From: Aquila chrysaetos chrysaetos
Lineage: Eukaryota > Chordata > Aves > Accipitriformes > Accipitridae
Direction of reading: 5' to 3'
Length of the DNA stretch: 64,000 nt
Assembly (NCBI RefSeq): GCF_900496995.4
Contig: NC_044011.1
Coordinates: 46,487,541-46,551,540 of the forward strand
Part shown: one piece after another, positions 30,520-61,140 of the stretch
How the letters are laid out: the number at the start of each line of letters is the position of its first letter
Position numbering within the stretch: the first letter of the stretch is position 1
Position numbers and translations under genes: made by a program
Notes under the pieces: generated by a model
What the model was told of the DNA's origin: nothing
The model's database searches: none
Seen by the model: only the letters and a program-made list of their open reading frames with translations

Positions 30520-31611
30520 CTACTCCATCCTGCTTGTTGAGCTCCGGCACAGCTCCTGGAGGTCTGTGGAGGCAGCGAATGAGCCCCATTAGCAACCCAT
30601 TCATCTAAAAAAAATGAACTATTTAAATAAATTTACAGAATCTGGTCCCTTCCCATGGTCTCTACCCCACCGGAGCAACGTTTCACCGCCATCCCACAGC
30701 ATACTCACAGCGTGTGATGGTGTCCCTGATCTGCCTGAAGCTGTTCTCCTTCAGCGCCATGTAGATGTAGTAGAGGTTTCGCAGCTCCTTGGGATAATCC
30801 TTCCGATCCACATCCTTCAACACCGGGATGGTGCGCCCGTTGGCCATCGGAGCTTCGGCCAAAGCCTGGTGCATCTGGTACTTGCACCAAGGGTCCCGGA
30901 GGAAGCCAGGGGTGATGAGCATGACCCAGCAGTGGCTGTTTTGCACGGCGTCGCACAGCTCCGTCACCACCGCGCTTCCTGGTGCCGCGTCCCGCAGCTG
31001 GAGGAAACAACGGAAGCTTTCGGGTTGACCTTCCAGGTAGGACACCAGCTCCTCCACCAGCTCCAGGTCCACCTCGCTGTGGCAGATGCAGACATCATAG
31101 CTCTTGGCCCACCGGGCACTGCCCGAGGCGTTGATGTCCAACATGGGTGATGAGCGGACGGACCTGGCCAGGCTCGTGCTGGGAGAAGCACCAGAGCTCT
31201 CAGCAGAGGATGAGGAGGAGGAAGGCGAAGATGAAGCAGAGCGGCTGGCGTTGAGACTGCTCTCCACTGACCTGGGCTTGGGCTTGTGTAGAAGCCGCCT
31301 AAACCAGCCTGTAGAGTCAGAGAGACTGTGGTGAGGTTTGGGGGGGCTCAGCACTCCCCCCAGGCTTCCCAAGGGGCTTGCATGGCATCGCCGGCTCAGC
31401 AGGACACCTCCAGATGGAAACCGCCAGGCAGGATCTCACCCTGACCCCCCAAAAACCAGCCCAGCCTCTAAAACCTTGGCTATTGCCAAAATCCAGATGC
31501 TATTGCATCATGGCGAGCAGCCCACGGGCACCCTTGTGTTTCAGTGGGGAGGGGATAGAGCCAGAGGGTTTATCACCCCTGGCACGAACCCAGCCCAGAC
31601 TCACTGGCCAT
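30520..31611 (-). CDS. TIRAP: TIR-domain adaptor TIRAP/MAL
   Basis: TIRAP is a membrane-associated sorting adaptor that brings MyD88 to activated TLR2/TLR4. Coding exons on the minus strand: 31605-31611 (7 coding bases, ATG GCC A), 30709-31308 and 30520-30563. They give 216 residues (human 221). The first exon joins in phase to give M-A-S-W-F-R-R, matching the human M-A-D-W-F-R core. Residues 5-15 are basic (FRRLLHKPKPR), the region that binds phosphoinositides in the human protein. A Ser-rich linker spans about residues 16-68. The TIR domain starts near Y73: box 1 is YDVCICHS, the BB-loop-like segment is RDAAPGSA, and ITPGFLRDPWCKYQM follows. Without the last small exon the frame would read into the intron and stop early. 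With it the protein ends in YLQELCRSSTSRME, like the human YLQTLS end. The short first and last coding exons were placed by splice consensus and phase, so they are less certain than the main exon. Confidence 0.92.
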
Positions 31612-33165
31612 AGTGGGCAGCACGCTGCTCAGCCACCGATCACCGGCATGAAACCTCTCCTGCCAGCAGAAAAAAAAGAGGGGAAAAAAAAAAAAAAAAA
31701 GAAATTAGGAGAGCAGCAACTGCCCTGCGGCAGGTCTCAGCCCCAGGAGCTCAGCAGGGTTTATTCCAGGGACACACAGCTCTGGGGTGCTCACCTGCCG
31801 CCCCAAAAATCACCCCAGCAGGGTTTTCCACATCCACTACCCCAAAATTTACCAGGAAGGAGCGTTTCAACCTCAAGCAGGGCTGGAAGCAGTGGCTCCA
31901 GCAGCCCTCCTGCCTGCCTGCACTTCTACTGCTCATTACCAGCTCTCTCCAATGGAGATACAAACCTGCAGCGAGTGAGGCTGAGAGCTGACAGGCAGGA
32001 GAAACCCTCATTCCCAGCAGCAGGGAAAGGATCCTGCAGAGGGGAGAAGCGAGGATCAGTGGGGATCAACCAGCTGCTGACAAACCAGACAGCTGGGGTG
32101 ATGTCCAGATCCATATGTCCTCAGTGATGCCTGCCCATCCCTTGCCAGCTCACGCCAGGCCTACACCTTGGCATCATGCTCCCGGCACAGTCTGGGGTGC
32201 CCAGGAGAAGTGATGGGGCAGGGACAAGCCCCAGGAGAAAACGTCGCTGCCATTTTCCACTGCTTACATCACCCCTTCCAAAATAAAACATCTCAAGTCA
32301 CACTGAAGCCTTTCCCCCACCCCAAAAACGGAGCAGGACTGCAGCAAATGCTGGCAAGGGTCCGGCGCACCCACGGAAACCACACTCCCCAAGCGAGCCC
32401 CCAGTTAGTAATAGCGAAAAGCTCGAGCATGGCTTGAATGACAAGCATGGATGGTGAACGGTAGGGGGGAAATTTGGGGGATGCCTACCTGGGATGCAGG
32501 AGTCAGGCACCGGAGCAGGGAAGGGGGATGCATCAGCCCCTGGGTTCAGTGAGGAGGAAGATCTTCCAGGATTGCCTAGGTGGGAAAGGAGAGGTAGGAT
32601 GCAGCACGTTCACTCTGGAACCTAATGGGATCCACAGCAAATGGTGAGACTCAGCCATCCTTACAGCTTCCCCATCCGGAGCCAGTTCCCAACAGAGCAA
32701 CCCCAGTGTGGAGGGGAGGACATGGGCACCCACCAGCTTTCCCAGGGACGGAGTGGAGGAGCTGCCCCGACCCTCCACTGCCTGTTCCCCTGGCCCCCCC
32801 AACACCCCCCTACTTGCTGGCAGGTCCGGGCTCTGCCTGGGCATGCGGAAGTGCCGGCAGGGGAAGTCTGCCGTGATCCTGTGGGGCCGGGAAGCCTGCC
32901 CTCCCTGGGGCCTCCCTCCCACATCCGCCACCAGCCAGATGCTATCACCAGGCAGGCGTCACCGCACCCAGCCCTCGCCAGTGCACGCCAGCAAGCCCAG
33001 ACCCATTTCCCTCCCTGGTTTTATAACCAGACACCAGATGGGTCCATCTCTGCCGCTCCCACTTATTTTATGAGTTACATTTACCAAACGAGGCATTTTT
33101 TTCCCCCAAAAATCCACCCCCATCTCTCCTTTCCCAGGTTGCATCCCCCCTGGACCCCCCCAGCC
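31612..33165. promoter_or_regulatory. Divergent intergenic region TIRAP / (6-4) photolyase
   Basis: The 1.55 kb between the two start codons holds the 5' ends of two genes pointing away from each other. An acceptor-like CTTTTCCCAG ends at about 33137, 29 bases before the photolyase ATG, so non-coding 5' exons probably lie further left for that gene and further right for TIRAP. A run of about 18 A occurs at 31683-31700. I see no strong CpG island and cannot assign transcription starts. Confidence 0.45.
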
Positions 33166-35487
33166 ATGCAGCACAGCTCTATCCACTGGTTTCGGAAAGG
33201 TCTCCGGCTGCACGACAACCCGGCGCTGCTGGCAGCGGCCACCGATTGCCGCCACCTTCATCCCCTCTTCATCCTCGACCCATCCAGCAGCCGCGCAGGC
33301 ACCAACGCCTGGCGGTTCCTCCTCGATGCCCTGCGGGACTTGGATGGGAGCCTGCAGGAAATGGGCTCCAGGTGAGTCCCGGTGCCATCCCCGAGGGATT
33401 TGGTGGGGTCTCGAGGGGATTCGTGCCCACCCGGTTCCCCGGCAGGCTGTTCGTGGTGCAGGGCTGCCCAGAGGAGGTGTTCCCCTGTCTCTTCCATGCC
33501 TGGGGGACAACACGGTTGACCTTCGAGGTGGACACCGAACCCTCTGCCCGCCGGCGCGATGCCACCGTGGCCAAGCTGGCGGAACGGCACGGCGTGGAGG
33601 TGATCCAGGAGGTGTCCCACACCCTCTACGACACCGAGAGGTGGGTGCCTGGCGCTGTCCCTCAGGGTACAGGGGATCCAGACCCGGTGCCGAGCGTGTC
33701 CCTCCCTCTCCCACCTCAGAGTCCTTGCCTTGAACGATGGCAAAGCCCCCCTGACCTACAAGGGCCTGCAGAGCCTCCTGGCATCCCTCGGACCCCCGGA
33801 GAAGCCAGCCCCGACACTCACATTGGAGCACCTCCAGGGTGAGCATGGGGTGGACGTGGGGTGGTAGAGCACAAAGCTGGGTCAGCGTCTCCCTCACTGT
33901 TCACCCTGGAGTGGAGTGATGGCTGTCACAGCCTCACCGTACATGGCACCCCAGGCTGCCACACCCCATGCCAGGTCAGCCATGACACCGAGTACGGGGT
34001 CCCCACCTTGGAGGAGCTGGGCCAGGACCCCACCGAGGTGGGTCCTCACCTCTACCCCGGCGGGGAGAGAGCAGCACTCGCCCGGCTCAACGCACTCATG
34101 GACAGGACGGTCAGTGCTCAGCACCCATCACCATAATTTCAGGGCTGCTTTGCCTCCCCCCATCCCAAAACATGATCCTTGTGTGTCCCCCCCATTCAGG
34201 CCTGGCTGTGCAGCTTCAAGAAGCCCGAGACAGAGCCCACCTCGCTGAGCCCCAGCACCACAGTCCTCAGCCCCTACCTCAAATTCGGCTGCCTATCGGT
34301 CCGCACCTTCTGGTGGTGGCTGCACGAAGTCTACCAGGGGGTGAGGCAGCATTTTTGGGGTGCTGGGCAGAGGTTGAGCCAGAGGGACCCTGCAGAAGGG
34401 GTGGGGGGCTGGAGAAGACAGGGGCCAGCCCAGCCAGAGGGGCTGATCCTGCCTTTGCCAGCAGCGGGAGCACTCCCAGCCCCCTGTCTCCTTGCACGGG
34501 CAGCTCCTCTGGAGGGAATTTTTCTACACTGCCGGCGCTGGCATCCCCAATTTTGACAGGATGGTCAGCAACCCCATCTGCCTGCAGGTCGACTGGGACA
34601 ACAACCCCCAGCACCTCCGTGCCTGGAGGGAGGTATTTCCCTCAGTGATAAGTCCCGAGTCCTTTGACCCCCAAAAAACACACCCCTGACCCCAGCACCC
34701 CACACCAGGGCCAGACAGGCTACCCCTTCATCGACGCCATCATGACCCAGCTGCGCACCGAGGGCTGGATCCACCACCTTGCTCGGCATGCCGTTGCCTG
34801 CTTCCTCACCCGCGGGGACCTTTGGATCTCCTGGGAAGAAGGGCTGAAGGTCAGATCTCCCCCAACACCCACCAGTGCCCACTGGGCTCTTGGGGACCCC
34901 GTCCCCATGCCATCACAGTGTCCCACAGGTCTTTGAGGAGCTCCTGCTGGACGCTGACTGGTCCCTCAATGCCGGCAACTGGCTGTGGCTGTCAGGCAGT
35001 GCCTTCTTCCACCGATATTTCCACATCTACTCACCCGTCGCCTTCGGCAAGAAGACAGACCGGGACGGGGCATACATTCGGTAGGCGCAAAACCCAAAGC
35101 CATGTGAAATGGGAGGCGGCCTCCCTGCTGGCTTTGACCCCTCGCCGTAGAAAATACCTCCCTGTCCTCAAGGACTTCCCCGCCAAGTACATCTACGAAC
35201 CGTGGAAAGCACCACGGGCTGTGCAAGAACAGGCAGGCTGCTTGGTGGGCACCCACTACCCCCCAGCCCATCGTGGAGCACGGGGCGGTGAGCAAGAGGA
35301 ATCTGGGGCGCATGAAGGCGGCCCGCGCCCAGAAAGGTAACGAATCCCCCAGGAGGCACCAAGCTCCCCTTGTACCCTGCCGCCACTCCAGCTGCCTTCC
35401 TCTCCTCCAGGCACCAAGCGGGAACAACCAGCTGGCCCCTCAGTAGCTGAATCACGAAGGAAAAAGCCCAAGGCTGAGCAGCACTGA
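33166..35487 (+). CDS. CRY5: (6-4) photolyase, cryptochrome/photolyase family
   Basis: This flavoenzyme uses blue light to reverse UV-induced pyrimidine(6-4)pyrimidone photoproducts. Coding exons: 33166-33371, 33446-33640, 33720-33838, 33955-34109, 34200-34340, 34465-34632, 34709-34849, 34929-35080, 35151-35336, 35411-35487. The protein follows amphibian and fish (6-4) photolyase (zebrafish cry5) almost throughout: [19 protein letters not shown] at the N-terminus, the [15 protein letters not shown] segment, and [15 protein letters not shown] in the flavin pocket. The two catalytic histidines of the Xenopus enzyme (H354/H358) fall at H351 and H355 in HHLARH. W393, W370 and W316 fit the electron-transfer triad. 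The coding length is 1540 nt, one base too many. A six-C run at 35259-35264 (residue ~464) shifts the frame away from a conserved tail encoding [12 protein letters not shown] and a basic RRKKPK end. As read, a different tail of about 37 residues results; the catalytic core lies before it. CRY4 was considered, but the active-site and C-terminal match favours (6-4) photolyase. Confidence 0.93.
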
Positions 35488-35745
35488 CCCCCACAGGGAC
35501 ACCCAGCCGTGGGTCAGGCACCACTTGTCCCGTTTTGACCCATTTCGCTCAACTGCCTCGCATTAATCCCTTCCCCTCTCCTACCCCAAGACCGGTGACT
35601 TCGATGCTGCCACCACCCCAAAAACCAACTCCCCACCCAAGGATGTGCCCCAGAGGGCAAACGCCGCCCCGCAAACCTGAGTCCCCAAGGGACAACACCC
35701 CATTGGATCAACCTCCACCCCTACCTCAGTGGTAATATAATCATT

Positions 35746-35751
35746 ATTAAA
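35746..35751 (+). terminator. CRY5: Candidate photolyase polyadenylation signal
   Basis: ATTAAA lies 259 bases after the stop codon at 35485-35487, in an AT-rich patch (TAATATAATCATTATTAAAG). It is the first PAS-like hexamer downstream. Confidence 0.45.
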
Positions 35752-41266: not shown

Positions 41267-47250
<5,984 letters not shown>

Positions 47251-51700: not shown

Positions 51701-54700
51701 AACCTGGCTGATTCAGTCTCTGGAGTTTATTTATCTGAACTTTAACCCTGTATCGGACCACTTCACCTCGAGCCAGACATCAATGCGCCGCTGCCCTTTG
51801 CTCACAGCGGGAAAGCCTCACCAAAAAGAGGTCTGGACCTCTCCCAGGCACACGCTGGGTTTTTGGGTCTCCTCAGGCTCTATTACCCTTCCAGGACCCC
51901 CCAGCGTACCCTCTCCCAGTCTTTCCAGCAAGCAGAGAAATAAGGAAAACGGCAATAAGATCCGGGAAAGCAAGATCTGACTTCCAGGGGTCACTGAAGG
52001 AAGGAGACATTCGGCTATGGCCGAGGGACACGAGGAAGAGCTGATTTGCAGCACGGGTAGACTGACCACGTCGTTGCTACCCACCTGGACTTCTCCCCTG
52101 CTTTCATGTGTCTCTTGAAAAATTCCTCCCGGTTCTTTTGCAGGATTTCATCCTTGGTCAGTTCCTCCCTGTCCCCAGCTGTGGAGGGCTGCTTGTCACC
52201 CACAGATGCTTTACCGGGTGCTGCGACAGCTTCAGTTCCTGACGGAAAGAGCCCCGACACGAGCTCAGACCAGCGTCTGGGTGCTACGAGAGGACTGGGA
52301 AAGCGCAGGCTGGGACACAGAGCTCTGGAATATTTATTCCCCCCCCCCCCCCCGCAATATATCCTTCCTATCAACTCACCCTCTTTCTTGGAACCTTTGT
52401 TCTTCTTGTTCTTGACTTTCTCCTTTGGTTTCTCCCCTCGGGTTTCTATCATACACTTGACAGTCTTCTGGGACTTGAGAGACTGCTCAAACGTCTTCAT
52501 TACCGTGGGAGGTCGGACTTTACTGCTCTCCTCTGCATCCCTGCGGGGAGGCGGCCCGTCAGCCTGATTTTTAGCTCTGCCCCTCCCCTCCACATGCCCC
52601 CCCCCCCCCCCCCCATTTATCTCTGCTCTAAATGGAAATGAGAGAAAAATCAGGTTCTGCTACCGAAGAAGGCGCATGAAGTCGTCTTTAAAATCAAAGG
52701 TGCCATTTAGGAGGCCCAGGGTGCCTTTCTGCTGGAACTCATTGCGATACTTGTCTCTGAACTCCTTATGAACGTCGTCTATCAACTTGTCGACGTAGGT
52801 TAGAGTCAGGATCTTCTGAAACCCCACCTGCAAAGAAGCACAGCAAAAAGATGTTGCTCTTTCAGCTAATTTAACTGCAGCATCTAGCTGGCAAGGAAAC
52901 AAAAACCTCTCCATTTAATACAGAGTTCTTTAATTTCGGCCGGCTTCAGTTTTCCAGTCTGACTTCCCAAGCTTTTAATATGCTCTCAAAAAGGAAAAAA
53001 AAGGGCACAGCCCAGATCTTCGCTTTACGAGGCGACACCAATAAAAATGGGTTGACTGTTTCACGGCAACAAAGACATGTAGCGAAAGAGCAGAAAGCCT
53101 TTTGCTTATCTTTAGGTACACAACGAAGGCTGTGTGGATTTATAGAGATAAGGTACTGAAAGGAAGAGCATTAAAATAGATCCTAAAGTAAAGCTGATGA
53201 CAGGTTCCTGGCTTTTTTTAAATAGATCTGGTCAAAGTAAAAAGTTTTATTAGCATGTAGCAGCCTGTACAGTTTCTATGTGAGGTTTAATGAGTTTTAA
53301 TCCTATCGCAGACGATTGAAATAAACTGCTACCACAGCGGTGTATGACCCAGAGGCACCCGCATCCACCCACCAAGTCCACTGAGCTCCCCGAGGAAGAA
53401 GCACGCGGGAGCGGGCTGCGCTGGGATCGCCGCTCGATCCCCCCCACCCCGAGGCTCTTCCGGAGCCAGGAACGACGAGACCCGCGTCATACCTCCTCAT
53501 CCCCCAAAACCCCAGAGCCAGAAGGAGGTAACCCAGTTCTGGGAGTCGAGGTACGGCCCTACGCAATTAAAACATCCATTTGCCGAGACCACCGCAAGCT
53601 GATAACGGTTCTCTCCGTTTCCAGACCGGATTAACGCTAACTCGGGGGCGATTTTTCCCAACGCGCGCAACTCCCATCGTGCCGTTTTCCCAGCCGGCAC
53701 CGGCTCTTCGGCGAGGCCGACGGGCCCGCGGCGTTCCCCAGGCCGACGCGGGCAGCTGCCGGCACGGGGAGGAGGAAGAAGGGGAAGGCGCCGGGAAAAA
53801 CCTTCGCGTTATCGCCGCGCGAGCTGCCCCTTTTCCCAGGCAGCGCCGACGAAGCCTCCTCGCCACGTCAGCCCCCGCTCTCCCCGAGAATTTAGGGAGG
53901 CTGCGGAAAACCTCACCCCTTTGGGAAGGCATTAAACGGCTTTTTTTGGTTTTTTTTTCCCCAACCGAGCCACAGGCGAATGCCCCTTTTCTGGGACAAC
54001 CCCCCTCCCTCGGGGTTTTGGGGTACCCTGGGGGGGGGGGGGGGGGCAACCTGCCGTCCCAGGGGTGCCTGGGGGGGGGGGGTTGCTTACCACAAACACC
54101 AGCTCAAACTGGTTGTCCAGTTTGTACTTGAGCGTGAGGGCTTCATGGGTGAAGGAGTTGTTGCCGCCTCGCTCCTAGGGGAGAGGAACCGTCGGAAGGG
54201 GGGTGCCAGCAGTGAGGAGACCCCTCCATCATCCCTGTCACCCCCCCCCCCCCAAAAAAGTGGCCCAGCCCACCCCCCTGGGCAGATGGTCCCATCCTTC
54301 CTTCCCCAAATGGGTCGGTCATAACCCCCCCGCCTCCGTAGGTGGACCCACCCGTGTCTCCCCCCCCCCTCCCCAAGCAAGTGATCCCATCCACCCCCGA
54401 TAAATGCTTGTGCCCATGCCCCCCCCAGTTAGGTGGTCCCACCTGTGTGTCATCCCCCCCACCCCAGGTAGATGGTCCCAACCACGCCCCCCCCCCCCAT
54501 CCCCAGGCAGATGGTGCCAACCGCCCCCCCCCATCCCCAGGTAGGTGGGCCCGCCCAGTCCACCCCCATCCCCAGGTAGGTGGCCCCTACCCGCCCATCC
54601 CGTCCCGTCCCCCCCCCCCCCCCAGCTGGTGGTCCCGGCCGCGTCTCCCCCCATCCCCTCCAGACAGATGGTCCCGCCCGCCCCGGCAGGTGATCCCGGC

Positions 54701-55068: not shown

Positions 55069-58000
55069 ATGCTGCGCTGGGGGCGCGCTCTGCGCCCGCC
55101 GAAGCGGGGGGGGACCCCGGGGGGGTCCCCGGCACCGGGGGGGGCTCCGGACCGCCCCCTCCGCACCGCGGCCCCGCTCAGCTCCGACATCTTCCGCGGT
55201 GAGACCCGGGAGGGCCGGGGGGGGGGTGTCCCGTGGAGATTTGGGGGGGCGAGGTGGTCGGGGAGAGGGGGGTCGAAGGGATGGGGAGGGTCGGAGGGAA
55301 TGGGGGGGGGATCGCTGGGGGGGTTATGGGGGGGGTCCCCGGGGGACTGTGGGAGGACCCAGAGGAGACTGGGGGGAGTCCCGGGGGGTTGGGGGTCCCA
55401 GAGGGTACTCGGAGGTTTTCAGGGGACCCAGGGGCAACTGGGGGGGGGGGCATGGGGGGGCCCGGAGGGGACTGGGGGCTCCGAGGGGGGACTAGGGAGT
55501 CCCAGAGGACTTGGGGGTGGTGTCCCAGGGGACTGGGGAAGGTCTTGGGGGGTCCCACAGCAGAGTGGGGGGACCCAGGAGGGACTGGTGGGGGTCCCAG
55601 GGGACTGGGGGGGGTCACAGAGAGTCTGGGGGGGTTCCAGGGGATCCTGGGGGGGTTGTCGCAGAGGGGCCTGCGGGGCACCCAGGTAGCTGGGGGGGCC
55701 TGGGAGGTGCCAGAGGGGCCTAGGGGGGTCCCAGGGGATGTAGGGGCTAGTGGGGGGGTCCCAGAGGGGACTGGGGGGGGTCCTGAGGGGTGCCGGGGGG
55801 CTGCCAGCTGTCCCCCCCCCCCCAGGCCTGACAGCCCACCCCCCAATATACCGGCAGAGCTGAGGCCAGGTCTGAGTCGCCTGGGTCAGATTCTGAAGGA
55901 TCAGCTGCCGGTTTCGGGGGGCGGATGGGGGGGCTGGACCCCCCCGGGGACCCCCCCGGGTCCACGACCCCCCGAAGAAGCTGACGTGGTGGTGGTGGGG
56001 GGCGGCGTGGTGGGCTGGTCGGTGGCGTACTGGCTGAAGGCGCTGGAGGGCCGGCGGCACGGCATGAGGGTGCTGGTGGTGGAGCGGGACCCCACGGTGA
56101 GACACCCCCCTCCCGGGGTGGGGTACGGCCTCGGGGACCCCCCCTGAACCCCACCTTCTTTTTCTTTTTTTTTTTTTTTTTTTTTTTTTTTGGGGGGGGG
56201 GGGGGTTGGTGGGGGGGTCCTCTCCTTCAGTATTCCCGAGCCTCCACGGTGCTGTCAGTGGGGGGGATCCGGCAGCAGTTTTCCCTCCTAGAAAATATCC
56301 GGATGTCCCGCTTCTCCGCCAGCTTCCTCCGCAACATCAACGTATGTGGGGTTATTTTGGGGGGGGGGGTAAGTTGGAGGGGGGGGGGGTCCAGCCCTGC
56401 TCACCAGGGTAGCCTCCCCCCCCCCCCTTACAGGAGCACCTTGGGGTGCCGAACGAGCCCCCCATCGACATCCAGTTCCAACCCTCGGGGTACCTCTTCC
56501 TCGCCCCCCCGCAGAGCGCTGCCAGGCTGGAGGCCACCGTCCAGCTCCAGAGGTGGGGGGGACAGACATAACCCCCCCCCGGGGTTGGGGAGGGTTTGGG
56601 GGAGGGGATGTCTCATCCTGACACCCCCCCCCCGGCATGCTGGCTGTCCCCAGGGAGGAAGGGGTGCAGGTGGCCCTGCTGTCCCCCACCCAGCTGAAGG
56701 CGAAATTCCCCTGGATAGACACGGAGGACGTGGCCGTGGCATCCTACGGTACGGGGGGGGGGGGCGTGGGGGGAGGACAGATGGACGTGGGGACCCCCCC
56801 TCAACACCCACCCCCATCCTCCTCCTCATCCCCATCCTCATTTCCATCCCCATCCCAGCCGGGTGCATCCTTCATCCTCAGTTTATTTGGGGAAGGGGGG
56901 GTCCAGCCCTGCTAAAATTGGGGATTTTGGGGGGGGGGGGGGGGGTTGTCACACTGAGGTGCCTGCCCCCCCCCCCAGGTCTGGAGGACGAAGGCTGGTT
57001 CGACCCCTGGACCCTCCTCAACGCTTTTCGGCGCAAAGCCGCATCCCTGGGGGTCCACAGCTGCAACGGGGAGGTGCGAGGTGAGGGGGGGGGGGGTGGG
57101 CGGGAAACAGCGCGGTACCCCCCACCACCCCCGGGACCCCCCCAGTCTCACACACCCCCCCCCCCCAAAAAAAAAAAAAACCCTCCAGGTTTTGTCACCT
57201 CGGCTGAGGACACGATGCCGCCGTGGGCACCGGCACCGATGACGGCCCGCATCAAATACGTCCACGTGAGTGTGTCCCCCGTCCCACGCGGGAGGGTCCC
57301 CACGAGTGTCCGTGACCCCCCCCCATCCCAAATCCTCATCCCGTGTGTCCTCTGTGTGTGTGTGTGTGTGTGTGTCCGTCGTCCCCCCCCCCAGATCCAC
57401 ATGCCGGACAGCCTGGAATACCAGCCGGTCGCCTGCGCCATCGTGGTGAATGCCGCCGGTGCCTGGGCCGGGGAGCTGCTGGAGGCGGCCGGGCTGCCGG
57501 GGGGGCTGGCACAGCCCCCCCTGCCCATCCAGCCCAGGAAGAGGTGAGGAGGGGGGGGGGCTTATTTTGGGGGGTTCACATCTTGCCATCGCCCCTCCGT
57601 TGTGGGTGAAGCCCTCGGTGCTTTATTGGGGGGGGGGGGGTCATCCCAGCACCCGCCGCCCCTCTGTCGTGGGTGAACCCCCTTGGTGTTTTTTTTTGGG
57701 GGGGGTCACATCCTGGCACCCATCATTTCTTTGTCGTGGGTGAAGCCCTTAGTGGGGTTTTTTTTTGGGGGGGGGGTGTCATGGTGGGGGGATGCATCCC
57801 AGCACGCAAGAGCAGGAGGGTGAACCCCTCGGTGCTTTTTGGGGGGGGTCTGCATCCCAGCACCCCCACCACCCCTCCCATCTTCGGGGGGGGGGTTGAA
57901 CCCCTTGGTGCTTGGGGTTTTTTTTGGGGGGGGTTGAACCCCTTGGTGCTTGGGGTTTTTTTTTTGGGGGGGTTGAACCCCTTGGTGCTTGGGGGTTTTT

Positions 58001-58798
58001 TTTGGGGGGGGGGGACACCGAAGTACCCACCACCCCCCCAATCTGGAGGGAGCAATACAAACCCCTCCACACTATTTTTTTGAGTGGGGGGCACACACAC
58101 ATCCCAGCCCCTCTAAAGGTGGGGGGGGGGCCAGCCTGAACCCCTCATCCCTATTTTTTTTGGGGGGGTGCCCCCCCCATCCCTATAGGTACGTGTTCTC
58201 CTGGCACTGCCCCGACGGCCCCGGCTTCTCCTGCCCCCTCCTCGTCGACACCACCGGAGCTTATTTTCGCCGCGACGGCATCGCCGGCAACTACCTGGGC
58301 GGCATGAGCCCCCCCGAGGTGAGCCCGCAGGGGGGTCCCCGATATTATTTTCCCCCCCCCCTTTTTTTTTTTTAACACAGACCCCCCCCCCCCCCTCCCC
58401 CGGTCAATTAATTTTTTTAATTTTTTTTTTTTTTTCCCCAGGAGGAAGAGCCGGATCCGGGCGATCTCTCGGTGGATCACGATTTTTTCCAGGAGCGGGT
58501 CTGGCCCCGTCTGGCTCGTCGGGTCCCAGCCTTCGCGTCCCTCCGTCCCCGGGGGTCTTGGGCGGGCTACTACGACCATAACGCCTTCGATCGGAACGGG
58601 GTGCTTGGCCCTCACCCCAAATTAGAAAATCTGTTTTTAGCCGCCGGTTTTAGCGGGCACGGGTTGCAACACGCCCCCGCCGCCGGCAGAGCGGTGGCCG
58701 AGCTGGTGGTGAAGGGCCGGTACGAGAGCCTGGACCTGCGCCGGCTGGGATGGAGGTTTGCCGAGGGGGAACCGCTGGAGGAGGACGGGGTGGTGTGA
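55069..58798 (+). CDS. FOXRED1: FAD-dependent oxidoreductase FOXRED1
   Basis: A mitochondrial flavoprotein needed to assemble respiratory complex I. Coding exons: 55069-55198, 55858-56096, 56231-56341, 56434-56552, 56654-56748, 56979-57080, 57189-57265, 57395-57543, 58189-58318, 58442-58798. They total 1509 nt, or 502 residues (human 486). The Arg-rich, acid-poor first ~43 residues fit a mitochondrial presequence. A Gly/Pro-rich spacer (about residues 62-82) precedes the Rossmann motif [12 protein letters not shown] (GGGVVG at 91-96). The DAO-fold segments [38 protein letters not shown] and GFSGHG (453-458) match human in order. For exon 2 an earlier acceptor at 55824 would run into a stop, so the one at 55857 is used. 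Introns are short and extremely G-rich on the coding strand. No break seen. Confidence 0.96.
55205..55800. repeat. FOXRED1: G-rich degenerate minisatellite in FOXRED1 intron 1
   Basis: About 600 bp of units of roughly 30 bp resembling GGGGTCCCAGGGGACTGGGG. Runs of G are close enough to form quadruplexes throughout the nascent transcript. It fills almost the whole of intron 1. Confidence 0.75.
56165..56205. repeat. T27-G14 homopolymer junction in FOXRED1 intron 2
   Basis: 27 T directly followed by 14 G, upstream of the exon 3 acceptor at 56230. The T run may serve as part of the polypyrimidine tract. Confidence 0.85.
57545..58182. repeat. FOXRED1: Minisatellite in FOXRED1 intron 8
   Basis: Tandem units containing GTGAACCCCTTGGTGCTT followed by a T run and a G run fill the intron. 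The left part has diverged units of roughly 70-100 bp. Three nearly identical 38-39-bp units start at 57895, 57933 and 57972. Confidence 0.8.
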
Positions 58799-59099: not shown

Positions 59100-60465
59100 C
59101 GCCCCCACCATGTAGCCCCGGTGCCCCCAGTACCCCCCCCCCCCAGCCCCAGTAGCTCCATTATGTTCCCATACCCCCAGTCCCAGTGTCCCCAGTACCC
59201 CTCGTTGTCCCCTGTTGCCCCCCCAGTGCCCCTCAGCCCCGCTCTCCCCAGTCCCAGTGTCCACCCAGTGCTCCCATTATCCCTCCAGTGCACCCCCATT
59301 ATCCCCCCCAGTGTCCCCATTATCCCCCTCATTGCCCCCCCAATTTCCCCATTATCCCCACATTACCCCCATATTACCCCCCATTACCCCTCCAGTGTCC
59401 CCATTATCCCCCCATTGCCCCCCCAGTGTCCCCATTACCCCCATTATCCCCCCATTGCCACCCCCAGTGTCCCCATTATCCTCCCCATTATCCCCCAGTG
59501 TCCCTGTTATCCCCCCATTACCCCCCTCCAGTGTCCCTGTTATCCCCCCCACTATCCCCCCCAGTGTCCCCATTATCCCCACCATTACCCCTCCAGTGTC
59601 CCCATTATCCCCCCAGTGTCCCCCCAGTGTCCCCATTATCCCCCCCATTGCCCCCCCCAGTGTCCCCATTACCCCCCATTACCCTCCCCATTGCCCCCCA
59701 GTGTCCCCATTATCCCCCCCATTACCCCCATTATCCTCCCCATTGCCCCCCCAGTGTCCCCATTATTCCCCCATTGCCCCCCCAGTGTCCCCATTACCCC
59801 CCATTACCCCCCATTATCCTCCCCATTGCCCCCCCCAGTGTCCCCATTATCCCCCCCATTACCCCGCAGTGTCCCCATTATCCCCCCCACTATCCCCCCC
59901 CAGTGTCCCATTATCGCCCCATTACCCCTCCAGTGTCCCCGTTATTCCCCCATTGCCCCCCCAGTGTCCCCCCAGTGTCCCCATTATCCTCTCCATTGCC
60001 CCCCCAGTGTCCCCATTATCCCCCCCCATTACCCCCATTACCCCCCAGTGTCCCCATTATCCCCCATTATCCTCCTCATTGCCCCCCCAGTGTCCCCATT
60101 ATCCCCCACATTACCCCCCGTTGCCCCTCCCAGTGTCCCCATTACCCCCCAGTATCCCCATTACCCCCATTCCCCCCCAGTATCTCCATTACCCCCCATT
60201 GCCCCCAGTATCCCCATTCCCCCCTATTACTCCCCCATTCCCCCCAGTATCCCCATTCCCCCCCATTACTCCCCCATTCCCCCCAGTATCCCCATTACCC
60301 CCCCCATTCCCCCCAGTATCCCCATTCCCCCAGTATCCCCATTATCCCCCCATTCCCCCCGGTATCCCCATTATCCCCCCATTCCCCCCAGTGTCCCCAT
60401 TCCCCCCAGTATCCCCATTATCCCCCCATTCCCCCCCAGTATCCCCAATTACCCCCCCAGCCCAT
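59100..60465. repeat. Large C-rich minisatellite between FOXRED1 and EI24
   Basis: About 1.35 kb of tandem units such as CCAGTGTCCCCATTATCCCC, roughly 25-32 bp long, several dozen copies. Units change along the array: CCCAGTACCCC-like at the left end, AGTGTCCCCATTATC in the middle (about 59280-60140) and AGTATCCCCATTCCC at the right (about 60140-60465). The long proline-rich open frames it creates in all three plus-strand frames are not genes. Confidence 0.9.
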
Positions 60466-60744: not shown

Positions 60745-61140
60745 CGGGGGAGAGCCCTGAGGTAACTGTGAACCCCCCGGGGGAGATCGTGGGGGTCACC
60801 CCCGGGAACCGTGGGGGCAGTCCTGAGGTAACTGTGGGCCTCGGGGGATCCGTGGGGCAACCCTGAGGTAATTTTGGATCCGGAGGGGTCCGTGGGGCAA
60901 CCCTGAGGTAATTTCGGGTCCCGAGGGATCCGTGGGGCAACCCTGAGGTAATTTGGCGTCCGGAGGAATTCTTGGGGAAACTCTGAGGTGATTTTGGGCT
61001 TCGGGGCCACCGTGGAGGCAGCCCTGAGGTATTTGTGGGCCTCTGGGGGACTGTGGGGCAGCCCTGAGGTAACTATGCCCCACACATACACACACACAGT
61101 TCTCAGGGGGACTGTGGGAACAGCCCTGAGGTAAATTAGC
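60745..61140 (+). repeat. EI24: Tandem ~40-bp repeat with splice-donor-like core, EI24 intron 1
   Basis: Nine copies of CCCTGAGGTAA or a close variant lie just inside intron 1, with the GT at 60762, 60828, 60868, 60908, 60948, 60988, 61029, 61069 and 61131. Most spacings are 40-41 bases, the others 62-66. The unit is G-rich (GTGGGGCAACCCTGAGGTAA). A tenth decayed copy near 61210 reads TGAGATAAG. Confidence 0.85.

Follow-up and report, generated by a model that had tools for sequence, protein, structure and literature searches.

A probable avian (6-4) photolyase gene with a single frame break in exon 9 in Aquila chrysaetos chrysaetos

The window analysed here, a 64,000-nucleotide stretch of the Aquila chrysaetos chrysaetos genome (contig C8, 46.49-46.55 Mb, in an assembly of 1.23 Gb and 144 contigs), holds a gene that we regard with high confidence as the bird ortholog of the vertebrate (6-4) photolyase (cry5). 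Judged from its sequence, the enzyme is a known one and the gene very probably an ordinary ortholog, with one base at issue. That base breaks the reading frame in exon 9. The break is evenly balanced between being and not being an assembly error in a run of Cs, a recent real loss falls just short of such a balance, and very little is left for something else; artefact against recent loss is about an even question.

The gene lies at 33166-35487 on the forward strand and consists of ten exons joined through nine introns of 70-124 nt, all with GT-AG borders (9/9), and there are zero in-frame stops upstream of the exon 9 break. Exon 1 (33166-33371) opens with the start ATG and ends in phase 2, and is followed by exons 2 (33446-33640), 3 (33720-33838), 4 (33955-34109) and 5 (34200-34340). 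Exon 6 (34465-34632) carries W316, exon 7 (34709-34849) carries H351, H355, W367 and W370, and exon 8 (34929-35080) carries W393. Exon 9 (35151-35336) contains a YIYEPWKAP motif and the frame break, and exon 10 (35411-35487) closes with a TGA (35485-35487) that is in the frame used downstream of the break. This structure agrees, coordinates included, with an earlier note on this DNA, which had described ten exons whose borders stay in phase until one site. ATTAAA, a possible polyadenylation signal, follows at 35746-35751 (+). The encoded protein matches the Pfam domains DNA_photolyase (7e-43) and FAD_binding_7 (1e-68), both of which are also found in cryptochromes, and because of this family match the gene is not a chance reading. 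Its GC3 is 0.82 against an intron GC of 0.63. An Rfam search gave nothing at gathering score. Upstream, 31500-33165 contains no E-box and no CRE; four D-box matches allowing one mismatch (two palindromic sites, 2.3 expected), one E'-box (0.3 expected) and one TATA (1.35 expected) occur there, counts too weak to be of use as evidence.

A PDB sequence search with the protein up to the break returned 45 distinct matches at E <= 1e-5, headed by CRY2 and CRY1 and continuing with the Chlamydomonas animal-like cryptochrome, the Drosophila (6-4) photolyase and pigeon CRY4. Identities are 58.5% to CRY2, 57.4% to CRY1, 57.4% to the Drosophila (6-4) photolyase and 54.1% to pigeon CRY4 (PDB 6pu0). CRY1 and CRY2 probably top the ranking because they evolve slowly, as their end branches, the shortest in the tree, suggest, and the ranking therefore does not name the gene's subfamily. 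In the protein tree, the CRY4 of the same genome and pigeon CRY4 form a clade (100/100) with the window sequence outside it, and CRY4 pairs with CRY1/CRY2 (88/88). Constrained placements were compared in trees of database-derived sequences only, which include no vertebrate (6-4) photolyase and thus leave the deeper position of the window sequence loose. Holding it with CRY4 gave p-AU values of 0.041 (pigeon CRY4 alone) and 0.034 (pigeon plus same-genome CRY4), and holding it with the Chlamydomonas protein gave 0.0002. Placement with the Drosophila (6-4) photolyase was mildly disfavoured (0.103 and 0.043 in two trees), and placement with CRY1/CRY2 was not rejected (0.182 and 0.148 in two trees). 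With approximate Xenopus and zebrafish (6-4) sequences added, the window sequence joins them at 100/99, and zebrafish alone at 99/98; with sequences of this kind the grouping is a lead and not a test, and the collinearity with Xenopus and fish stated in the earlier note was compared against them alone. The gene falls outside CRY4, and the nearly intact (6-4) photolyase ortholog that the earlier note had proposed is very probably what it is.

The same note had stressed the two catalytic histidines and the Trp triad. H351, H355, W316, W370 and W393, together with W367, do align to the corresponding positions of the Drosophila (6-4) photolyase, but the histidine pair and the triad are found in all seven aligned sequences (7/7), CRY1, CRY2 and CRY4 included, and are therefore neither diagnostic of a (6-4) photolyase nor evidence for repair. 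W367 is common to the window, Drosophila, CRY4, CRY1 and CRY2. In the Drosophila enzyme, a change of His365 abolished activity and a change of His369 strongly reduced it, and with the Xenopus counterparts of these changes all activity was lost, according to the accessible portion of PMC9852545. By the excerpted text of PMC9498864, the YIYEPWKAP motif occurs in 81% of (6-4) photolyases, 44% of the CRY1/2 type and 21% of CRY4. The window has it and none of the nine others examined does, and because these include the Drosophila and Arabidopsis (6-4) photolyases it is of little help on this set. CRY4's Tyr319 is replaced by Asp317 in the window, and Asp is also found in CRY1, CRY2 and the Chlamydomonas protein; neither YIYEPWKAP nor Asp317 would prove the subfamily. 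Better, if partial, markers are the lack of Tyr319, the exon layout and the alignment columns that set repair enzymes apart. At 12 columns uniting Drosophila, Chlamydomonas and Arabidopsis members, which we take to be (6-4) lesion repairers, against CRY4/CRY1/CRY2, the window has the repair-group letter in 8 and the CRY letter in 1. At 28 columns defined by Drosophila and Chlamydomonas alone it has 14 group letters and 5 CRY letters, and of 53 columns peculiar to CRY1/CRY2, 7 show the CRY letter and 35 that of some other row. Letters private to a single row do not discriminate (CRY4 7/104, Drosophila 10/108, Chlamydomonas 9/85, CRY1 11/95).

If the protein works as its family does, it would bind FAD, and the chain W393-W370-W316, perhaps with W367, would photoreduce the flavin. 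The excited flavin would then pass an electron to the (6-4) photoproduct, with H351 and H355 managing the proton, and blue light would in this way restore the original bases. The gene keeps 133 of the 142 columns that are invariant among six relatives, with nine family-invariant residues changed. Controls that drop one of the six relatives at a time, with the window sequence then helping to define the invariants, give 133/136 to 133/152. By the invariant-column measure the gene is conserved to the level of its relatives, and it was probably under purifying constraint until recently. It resembles the vertebrate (6-4) photolyase/cry5 of Xenopus and zebrafish in its domains, histidine pair, Trp chain and grouping with the approximate sequences, and differs from it by its extra base in exon 9. 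It shares the histidine pair and all four Trp residues with the Drosophila (6-4) photolyase (PDB 2wb2), alongside the identity given above, but it has a shorter loop (DPSSSRAG), has Arg changed to Ala at 48, and does not pair with that enzyme in the database-sequence tree. Further afield, viral contigs gave one pattern match and zero relatives, and prokaryote genomes gave 87 pattern matches and 54 relatives, 53 of them at 23-37% identity. The one close relative (L001:1501-2880), from a Gloeobacterales cyanobacterium MAG, is an unbroken frame whose product has 52% identity over the full query and falls with the Arabidopsis and Chlamydomonas members in the tree.

A C6 run of exon 9 (35259-35264, +) has one base too many, and no other lesion was found. 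Family residues extend to Tyr462 before the run, and the family sequence beyond it continues one base shifted; translated as assembled, the protein departs from the family sequence after residue 462 and is 500 aa long. As assembled, then, the gene has no complete reading frame such as a working gene has, which concerns its function, not its orthology, and the product of this allele would be without the last helix and the basic tail. The post-break frame, scored as a separate piece, matched the C-terminal helices of Drosophila, Chlamydomonas and CRY4 at scores reached by 0/1000 shuffles each, and that of Arabidopsis at a score reached by 17/1000. The assembled frame scored at chance level against the same tails (282-718 of 1000 shuffles). 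A genome search with 35080-35500 returned only that locus and 65 nt of CRY4, and hence no second copy.

One-base homopolymer gains are a common error of long reads, and the lone lesion sits in a homopolymer within GC-rich DNA. Conservation on both sides of the break, intact splice sites and the downstream ATTAAA also speak for an assembly or polishing error in an intact gene that encodes a normal (6-4) photolyase, a reading that takes half of our credence. The point against it comes from the surrounding genes, in whose coding exons no frameshift was seen. Their order is DCPS (-), TIRAP (-), the photolyase gene (+), FAM118B (+) and SRPRA (-). TIRAP and FAM118B, named as flanking genes by the earlier note, are recognised by a TIR-domain open frame at 30686-31435 (-) and by four open frames holding exons within 43305-46504 (+), one of these exons lying in the open frame 46112-46504. 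DCPS, at 23.8 bits, stayed below the cut-off of 25 but was also matched by an approximate human sequence. The four neighbour queries, three of them approximate sequences, were matched over 1431/1530 residues, and residues 280-310 of SRPRA had no match in the window. Between matches the frame changes only at gaps of at least 83 nt, compatible with introns, save in one SRPRA pair, in which the second match extends back across a short intron containing a stop.

The rest of the window includes a ~1.2 kb array at 59260-60460 with units like CCCCATTA and CCCCCAGT, and further C- or G-rich arrays at 54454-54681, 55542-55657, 57586-58011 and 60804-61072. Two CR1 repeat motifs, presumed bird markers, were not found in it. 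In chicken this block of genes is on a small microchromosome; its location here, 46 Mb into a contig, suggests the kind of microchromosome fusion seen in birds of prey.

The frame behaviour of the neighbours, together with CRY4, CRY1 and CRY2 of the same genome being uninterrupted over their modelled parts, favours the other main reading, to which we give a little less than even credence: a recent pseudogene in which the surplus C is real in the species and function was lost within the last several My, as one of repeated avian losses. A single lesion suits such an age. If neutral change is assumed to run at 1.5-3e-9 per site per year, with an assumed indel share, the chance that a dead gene shows no further lesion reaches 5% after ~4-10 My, so that the next lesion is expected within that span (95%). 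The persistence of the coding signal beyond the break counts against a pseudogene, as does the frequency of the same one-base gain as a long-read error. Frequent absence of the gene from birds, reported in the accessible parts of PMC9498864 and PMC4350181, counts for it.

A search of the genome for the FAD domain gave at least five places, on C17, C2, C24 and C3 and in the window, and by reference comparison the first three are CRY1, CRY2 and CRY4, respectively. The C3 locus (L066, ~73.55 Mb) is probably CRY-DASH, to go by weak identity and exclusion; it has no stop in its best-scoring match and bears on the published loss in birds. The same-genome CRY4 is uninterrupted across 492 modelled codons and identical to pigeon CRY4 at 440/492, and no stops occur in CRY1 (418 codons modelled) or CRY2 (two parts). 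Intron places were matched by eye from flanking letters, with the CRY2 junction near codon 277 unreliable and the comparison with CRY4 covering introns 1 to 8. Six of the nine window introns coincide with same-genome CRY4 introns in place and phase, and intron 3 is 2 nt off another. Among the six is intron 6 (codon 329, phase 0), which CRY1 and CRY2 lack; these have an intron at codon 196 (phase 1) instead, a layout that the window does not fit. Such sharing is what would favour CRY4, or a CRY4 duplicate, over a photolyase, a reading we find highly improbable: CRY4 has a locus of its own on a different contig, its fully supported clade excludes the window, joint placement is disfavoured by the p-AU values above, and the window has neither Tyr319 nor the codon-461 intron of CRY4 and has a codon-69 intron (intron 1) that CRY4 lacks. 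The earlier note had also expected a bearing on the origin of CRY4. One exact intron shared with CRY4 and not with CRY1/CRY2 fits a shared origin of CRY4 and (6-4) photolyase, and stands against the pairing of CRY4 with CRY1/CRY2 in the protein tree, but it settles little.

Just as improbable is a rescue of the frame in the mRNA, through splicing of an exon 9 stretch out to the AG at the C run or ribosomal frameshifting at the run: three GT-AG stretches that end at 35266 (103, 46 and 22 nt) are of a length whose removal would restore the frame, but known spliceosomal intron minima exceed 22 nt and excision of the 103-nt stretch would delete the conserved YIYEPWKAP segment. The 22-nt stretch (35245-35266) spans the C run, and gene-prediction pipelines may call it as a false intron.

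Returning to the (6-4) photolyase ortholog, the published record on birds is divided. In the portions of these sources available, PMC9498864 reports the enzyme from one third of Neognathae and from no other birds, PMC4350181 states that Cry5 was lost in birds, and a time-point table in PMC4564169 dates the avian loss of Cry-DASH and (6-4) Phr to 86.5-66 My; the occurrence table of PMC4564169 shows four plus signs for Aves in columns whose genes are not identified in that portion. The text of PMC10846946 that was accessible treats CRY4 loss and lacks the string 6-4, and the part of PMC5629816 at hand includes another photolyase among owl light genes. Literature searches on photolyase and frameshift in bird genomes found no report, those on photolyase in raptor or eagle genomes found the owl genome paper alone, and those on photolyase and FAM118B found a zebrafish vision paper alone. 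The earlier note had called presence in land vertebrates patchy and had linked a largely conserved bird-like copy to UV repair. The gene is indeed conserved, but a (6-4) photolyase in birds is not new, some birds having been reported with one in the portion of PMC9498864 available.

These partly available sources thus conflict, two stating loss and one stating presence in a third of Neognathae, and a conserved copy in a contiguous assembly backs presence in Neognathae and speaks against a single early avian loss. We tentatively raise the possibility that the loss has been caught in the act, with a one-base gain, fixed or segregating, having just silenced (6-4) photorepair while CRY4 and the probable CRY-DASH were kept. 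If true, avian loss of this enzyme would be recent and repeated, and would not go back to one event around the time modern birds arose.
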